Part shown: positions 7,426 through 7,748 of the stretch, piece after piece
Position numbering within the stretch: the first letter of the stretch is position 1
How the letters are laid out: each line of letters opens with the position of its first letter
Source of the DNA: Sphaerochaeta associata
Lineage (GTDB): Bacteria > Spirochaetota > Spirochaetia > Sphaerochaetales > Sphaerochaetaceae
Length of the DNA stretch: 64,000 bases
Assembly (NCBI RefSeq): GCF_022869165.1
Contig: NZ_CP094929.1
Span: 1-64,000, forward strand
Reading direction: 5' to 3'
Translations under genes and position numbers: made by a program
Notes under the pieces: model-generated
What the model saw: the letters and a program-made list of their open reading frames with translations, nothing else
What the model was told of the DNA's origin: nothing
Databases searched by the model: none

Positions 7426-7432
7426 ACCTGCT

Positions 7433-7456
7433 GGGGACTTCGGTCCCCGTTTTTTT
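7433..7456 (+). terminator. Intrinsic terminator after khpB
   Basis: GGGGAC (7433-7438), a TTCG tetraloop and GTCCCC (7443-7448) are followed by G and seven Ts. This is a textbook Rho-independent terminator closing the rpmH-khpB transcript. Confidence 0.93.
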
Positions 7457-7463
7457 ATTCTGC

Positions 7464-7532
7464 TTGACAACAATCCTTATTGGACCTACTGTTAGTAGTG
7501 TACCGTATGGTACTAAACACTATATCTTGTGT
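7464..7532 (+). promoter_or_regulatory. nrdD promoter with tandem NrdR boxes
   Basis: TTGACA at 7464-7469, a 17-base spacer and TACTGT at 7487-7492 form a promoter. The 16-mer at 7517-7532 (ACACTATATCTTGTGT) fits the published NrdR-box consensus acaCwAtATaTwGtgt at 15 of 16 positions. A degenerate second box at 7486-7501 starts exactly 31 bases upstream, the three-helical-turn spacing known for NrdR box pairs, and overlaps the -10. NrdR represses ribonucleotide reductase genes in response to (d)ATP. nrdR itself is not in this window. Confidence 0.8.
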
Positions 7533-7533
7533 G

Positions 7534-7748
7534 TATAGGAAAAGGGAAGTGGGTGAGAAGCCCACGCGGTCCCGCCGCTGTAAAGGGGAGATTCCGCTAA
7601 GAGCCACTGGAGTAATCCGGGAAGGGAGCGGGATTGATGAACCTGAGCCAGAAGACCTTGCCTGTACAGACACGCCGTCACGGAGTATGACAGGAGCGTG
7701 TGCCAATGCAGCACCGTTGCTCTGTCCATACTCCGTCAGGAGGAAGCC
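7534..7748 (+). promoter_or_regulatory. Cobalamin riboswitch upstream of nrdD
   Basis: Conserved cobalamin-aptamer blocks occur in the right order: AAAGGGAAGTGGGTGAGAAG, then GCGGTCCCGCCGCTGT, the B12-box GCCACTGG with GGGAAGGGAG, and a 3' GATGAACCTGAGCCAGAAGACC. Downstream, 7680-7693 pairs with 7722-7736 in a 14-bp hairpin with one bulge that ends two bases before the AGGAGG Shine-Dalgarno. An alternative CTCC/GGAG pairing (7731-7734 with 7739-7742) would mask that site, so translational control is likely. The aptamer is recognised with good confidence; the switching scheme is inference. Confidence 0.9.

Follow-up and report, generated by a model that had tools for sequence, protein, structure and literature searches.

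The nrdDG genes of Sphaerochaeta associata, which encode the anaerobic ribonucleotide reductase (RNR) and its activase, are very probably under a two-input OFF control, with NrdR acting at the promoter and a B12 riboswitch acting on translation. The window analyzed comprises 64,000 nucleotides (C1:1-64000) of a single-contig genome of 3.55 Mb, and the features of the locus described below lie on its plus strand. The nrdD gene (7749-9824) encodes a protein of 691 aa scoring 528.8 bits against TIGR02487 (cut-off 326), and the gene next to it (9821-10525) encodes an nrdG-type radical SAM activase, NrdG2 (TIGR02495, 179.5 bits, cut-off 131). An NrdD match above the model cut-off, together with the adjacent activase gene, places the enzyme in class III. 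Enzymes of this class are oxygen-sensitive and B12-independent, and make DNA building blocks. Upstream of nrdD lies jag/eloR, and the intergenic region between the two genes was inspected. Since an intrinsic terminator (7432-7456; a 7-bp stem followed by TTTTTTT) ends jag/eloR, nrdDG forms its own transcription unit with its own promoter region. The predicted -35 hexamer, TTGACA (7464-7469), is conserved as TTGAC in 27 of 27 aligned leaders, and is followed after a spacer of 17 bp by a predicted -10-like hexamer, TACTGT (7487-7492), whose TAnnnT is invariant in alignment A1. A promoter scan called no consensus promoter, because TACTGT agrees with TATAAT at only three of six positions. From these elements, transcription is predicted to start at about 7499-7500.

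Two NrdR boxes are found in this region. The strong one (box 2, ACACTATATCTTGTGT, 7517-7532) matches the scanned pattern, ACACWATATMTWGTGT, at 16 of 16 positions, or at 15 of 16 if the M degeneracy in the pattern is left aside, the latter being the score given in a preliminary description of this DNA. Throughout the 3.55 Mb, it is the only perfect match, and the second-best box (ACACTATATATAGCGT, one mismatch, C1:72614) lies ahead of the class II gene nrdJ; the two best boxes of the genome thus precede its two RNR genes, and the scan for further sites suggested in that description yielded no other near-perfect box. Matches with up to three mismatches occur at chance level (29 versus 30 for a reversed control pattern). 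The weak box (box 1, CTACTGTTAGTAGTGT, 7486-7501; 10/16 by eye) starts exactly 31 bp upstream of the start of box 2, as had been noted before. Its C4 and G13 are nearly invariant among relatives in alignment A1, and the corresponding base pairs have been found important for the binding of NrdR (PMC9110341); both the 31-bp spacing and these C/G positions agree with the NrdR-DNA cryo-EM geometry (PMC9110341). The leader therefore has the arrangement that defines the NrdR regulon, two boxes separated by about three helix turns close to a promoter, the first of them weak, and NrdR would be expected to bind there and repress nrdDG. That the boxes overlap the promoter, as first described, holds for the weak box, which lies over the -10 hexamer; the strong box falls in the predicted 5' UTR, at about +18 to +33. 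Between the two boxes, the sequence can form a hairpin, GUACC-GUAU-GGUAC (7500-7513; covarying in riboswitch-bearing nrdD leaders, 85% paired with two compensated pairs), which coincides with the predicted 5' end of the mRNA and is possibly a 5'-end mRNA hairpin. A hairpin of different sequence occupies the equivalent position in relative G050; in nrdD leaders that lack the riboswitch, the hairpins at this place are for the most part shorter or weaker.

The presence of a B12 riboswitch in the leader, also proposed in the preliminary description, was confirmed with the Rfam model RF00174 (89 bits, E 1e-20, threshold 31.5). The match spans 7491-7679 and places the strong NrdR box as helix P2 of the aptamer. 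Taken at face value, the palindrome at 7517-7532 would then be an RNA element only and not an NrdR operator, and an ACAC/GUGU pairing is indeed possible; we consider this reading very improbable. Pair counting on alignment A1, which comprises 26 leaders, gives no compensated pairs and 74-78% pairing for the box as P2, whereas a P1 formed by UGUAUAGG (7532-7539) and CCUGUACA (7661-7668) reaches 99.5% pairing and shows four compensated pairs. This P1 collapses when the strands are slid against each other, and the minimum-energy fold forms it likewise. A dual use of the strong box, as operator and P2, was rejected on the same counts, because the competing P1, which draws on the same 3' bases, does show compensated pairs. 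The P1 placed by Rfam was also rejected, being only 48% paired. The closing helix expected of RF00174 is therefore present, though not at Rfam's own 5' placement, and the P2 aligned by Rfam is without covariation in alignment A1. P2 is a variable, peripheral helix of cobalamin riboswitches, so that it is the score, together with the conserved core and P1, that assigns the RNA to the family. Given the covariation of P1, the aptamer (7532-7668) is of a P2-less form and starts where the operator ends. The start at 7534 given earlier was thus nearly right, but the transcript probably opens with about 32 nt ahead of the aptamer, the strong operator among them, and not with the riboswitch itself. 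The aptamer would bind a corrinoid and thereby change expression. As a caution for annotation, in P2-less aptamers the Rfam alignment can take up a neighboring DNA operator palindrome and show it as a spurious P2. A P2-less look, by eye, was also observed in the cobalamin riboswitch upstream of the TonB-type receptor gene mentioned below (L002, 1501-1680, minus strand), in which AUCUGG/CCAGAU stand beside the core.

The comparison with relatives also speaks against a palindrome that serves the RNA only. The pairing of box and riboswitch is kept in 26 other spirochaete leaders, and TTGAC, box, and riboswitch are found together in the nrdD leaders of 27 genomes, which come from Sphaerochaeta, from further genera of its family, and from a second family within the class. 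In 26 nrdD riboswitch leaders the best box scores 13-16/16, versus 8-12/16 upstream of 44 non-nrdD cobalamin riboswitches drawn from the same genome group, where the palindrome is absent. The same palindrome is instead found ahead of nrdJ, which has no riboswitch, and ahead of riboswitch-free nrdD genes of relatives. Boxes and riboswitch are modular: some relatives have the boxes without the riboswitch, and G085 has a riboswitch without a good NrdR box. The spacing of about 31 bp within the box pair is found in most relatives. A second RNR-like gene, an 813-aa open frame matching the N-terminus of NrdD, was observed in G044 (L102, G044:C72:20600-21300); a cobalamin riboswitch of its own and an NrdR box scoring 14/16 precede it.

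The genome encodes one NrdR (TIGR00244, 164 bits, cut-off 124.65), a protein without which the reading in the preliminary description would have fallen. By residue number (positions from PMC9110341), R17, R26-29, and R37 are present, with E at 15 and K at 12. Outside the window, nrdJ (C1:72799-75309) encodes a class II RNR (TIGR02504, NrdJ_Z; 580 bits, cut-off 400), as had been anticipated; its promoter has NrdR boxes of its own, and it is unlinked to nrdR. Nearly all members of the genus and family that were inspected have NrdR boxes at the nrdJ promoter, scoring 14-16/16 in most of them and usually accompanied by a weaker partner 31-32 bp away. When partial NrdJ matches are counted as present, and with the genomes not being phylogenetically independent, NrdJ is found in 28/30 genomes with an nrdD riboswitch and is absent from 11/14 with a riboswitch-free nrdD. 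The exceptions are G005, G028, and G047, which combine NrdJ with a riboswitch-free nrdD, and the incomplete genomes G022 and G023, which have the riboswitch and in which NrdJ was not found. No class I small subunit and no cobB/cbiA, a marker of de novo B12 synthesis, were found in the S. associata genome, and of its two further cobalamin riboswitches, one lies ahead of a TonB-type receptor gene and one ahead of a btuF-like gene (genes named by eye from their sequences). With only these two reductases and no cobB/cbiA found, which of the two is used would depend on imported B12. The dual control of the class III enzyme with a class II alternative, as first suggested, is thus supported by inference from nrdR, from nrdJ with its boxes, and from the finding of neither a class I small subunit nor cobB/cbiA in the genome.

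Downstream of the aptamer, a P13-like hairpin (7670-7701) has a loop, CGGAGUA, that is highly conserved among the leaders and is a candidate partner for an L5-L13 interaction; it would pair with L5. A CUCC at 7731-7734 can pair either with the GGAG of this loop or with the GGAG of the nrdD Shine-Dalgarno sequence (AGGAGG, 7738-7743, from the sequence). At this position, just upstream of the Shine-Dalgarno sequence, CUYY is found in 21/27 leaders and is missing in 6/27. Folding predicts the Shine-Dalgarno sequence to be paired when the P13 state is enforced, and the free-state fold does not cleanly release it, which makes the platform a plausible but unclean switch. Many cobalamin riboswitches act by transcription termination. 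The nrdAB transcripts of Propionibacterium acnes terminate early (PMC3848588), and a riboswitch that, alongside the operator, acts on nrdDG by termination instead of translation can be envisaged on these grounds. We regard this as unlikely, since no stem followed by a U-run was found between the aptamer and nrdD on the plus strand, and the last hairpin stops immediately ahead of the Shine-Dalgarno sequence. The lack of such a terminator after the aptamer, together with the CUYY alternatives, makes translational control the better guess.

Under the two-input control favored here, plentiful dATP would place an NrdR tetramer on the two boxes 31 bp apart, and initiation would be blocked. NrdR would also act on nrdJ, so both reductases would be lowered when dNTPs are high. 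The B12 arm would be specific to nrdDG: B12 bound to the aptamer (7532-7668) would stabilize the P13-like hairpin, whereby the CUCC would be freed to mask the Shine-Dalgarno sequence. With this sequence masked, nrdD would remain untranslated and the B12-dependent NrdJ would be used; imported B12 would thus let NrdJ work while the riboswitch shuts nrdDG. Points against this model are the weak -10 hexamer (3/6), the weak box 1 (10/16), and the unclean fold of the free state.

Operator and aptamer adjoin closely, as the NrdR box ends on base 7532, which also takes part in the outermost P1 pair; in relatives, this pair is U-A, C-G, or U-G. This double use could mean that the abutment is a functional coupling, in which NrdR bound to 7517-7532 influences the aptamer as it is being transcribed, or a start within the box decides whether P1 can form. 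The distribution in other phyla bears on the same point. A pattern scan covering one genome per bacterial and archaeal species returned 41 stretches, of which 35 were scanned with Rfam, six titled Sphaerochaeta or Sphaerochaetaceae being set aside. Twenty pattern matches in the 35 coincide with an RF00174 match, the others being background or falling below threshold. RF00174 aptamers with an NrdR box immediately ahead of them occur in Bacillota, Proteobacteria, and Planctomycetes, and in several phyla the operator lies 0-13 bp from the aptamer edge called by Rfam. In the leader of G044, however, where a P2 seems to be retained (ACUGC/GCAGU, by eye), box and P1 are 2 nt apart, and closeness is expected even without coupling, because both elements would lie near the start site. 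We therefore consider a functional coupling improbable. Equally doubtful to us is that operator and aptamer are physically fused under overlapping selection, with occupancy or start choice setting which transcripts carry a working riboswitch; if it were true, dNTP and B12 sensing would be coupled and not merely additive.

The preliminary description had called the combination of both elements in one leader unusual, which does not hold: it is kept throughout the genus and also outside it, was reported for P. acnes nrdDG in 2013, and is found on class I genes elsewhere. As an example, the class I leaders of Lentibacillus, Virgibacillus, Paenisporosarcina, and Alicyclobacillus, as well as those of Devosia, Roseiarcaceae, Steroidobacteraceae, and Planctomycetaceae, resemble the nrdDG leader in having an NrdR box just upstream of or at the RF00174 edge. 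These lie among loci L158-L194, were compared by box and aptamer, and differ in the gene downstream, which in all ten ORFs tested encodes a class I alpha subunit, versus class III here. Seven Bacillota loci of this kind (L159, L160, L163, L168, L178, L181, and L192) have a cobalamin riboswitch within tens of bases downstream of the NrdR box, with class I RNR genes downstream where tested.

Several published systems follow a similar logic. In delta-proteobacteria, a different phylum from Sphaerochaeta, control of nrdDG by a B12 element with NrdJ as the alternative was proposed in 2004 (PMC545781); as in S. associata, a cobalamin riboswitch precedes nrdDG and the B12-dependent NrdJ is encoded in the genome, and that report makes no mention of NrdR. 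In P. acnes, a cobalamin riboswitch and two NrdR boxes are combined on nrdDG, and nrdRJ has boxes without a riboswitch (PMC3848588). However, the P. acnes boxes are a long way downstream of the active nrdDG promoter and nrdR adjoins nrdJ there (PMC3848588), whereas the boxes of S. associata span the predicted promoter and reach up to the aptamer, and its nrdR and nrdJ are unlinked. In Streptomyces, nrdABS has a B12 riboswitch (PMC3293853) and NrdR boxes (PMC9110341). For S. coelicolor, according to Borovok et al. 2006 as cited in PMC3293853, NrdR boxes are on both RNR operons (nrdABS and nrdRJ) and the riboswitch is on the B12-independent one, nrdABS; the 31-bp box geometry of the NrdR-DNA structure (PMC9110341) is also shared, but the enzyme under riboswitch control is class Ia there and class III here. 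A literature search for Sphaerochaeta and riboswitch found nothing. The regulatory logic is thus known from other bacteria, and the novelty is confined to the lineage of the host and to the way in which operator and riboswitch are packed head to tail. With 27 aligned leaders, our analysis extends the choice of reductase by NrdR and a cobalamin riboswitch to Sphaerochaeta, a spirochaete genus, and to the family it belongs to.
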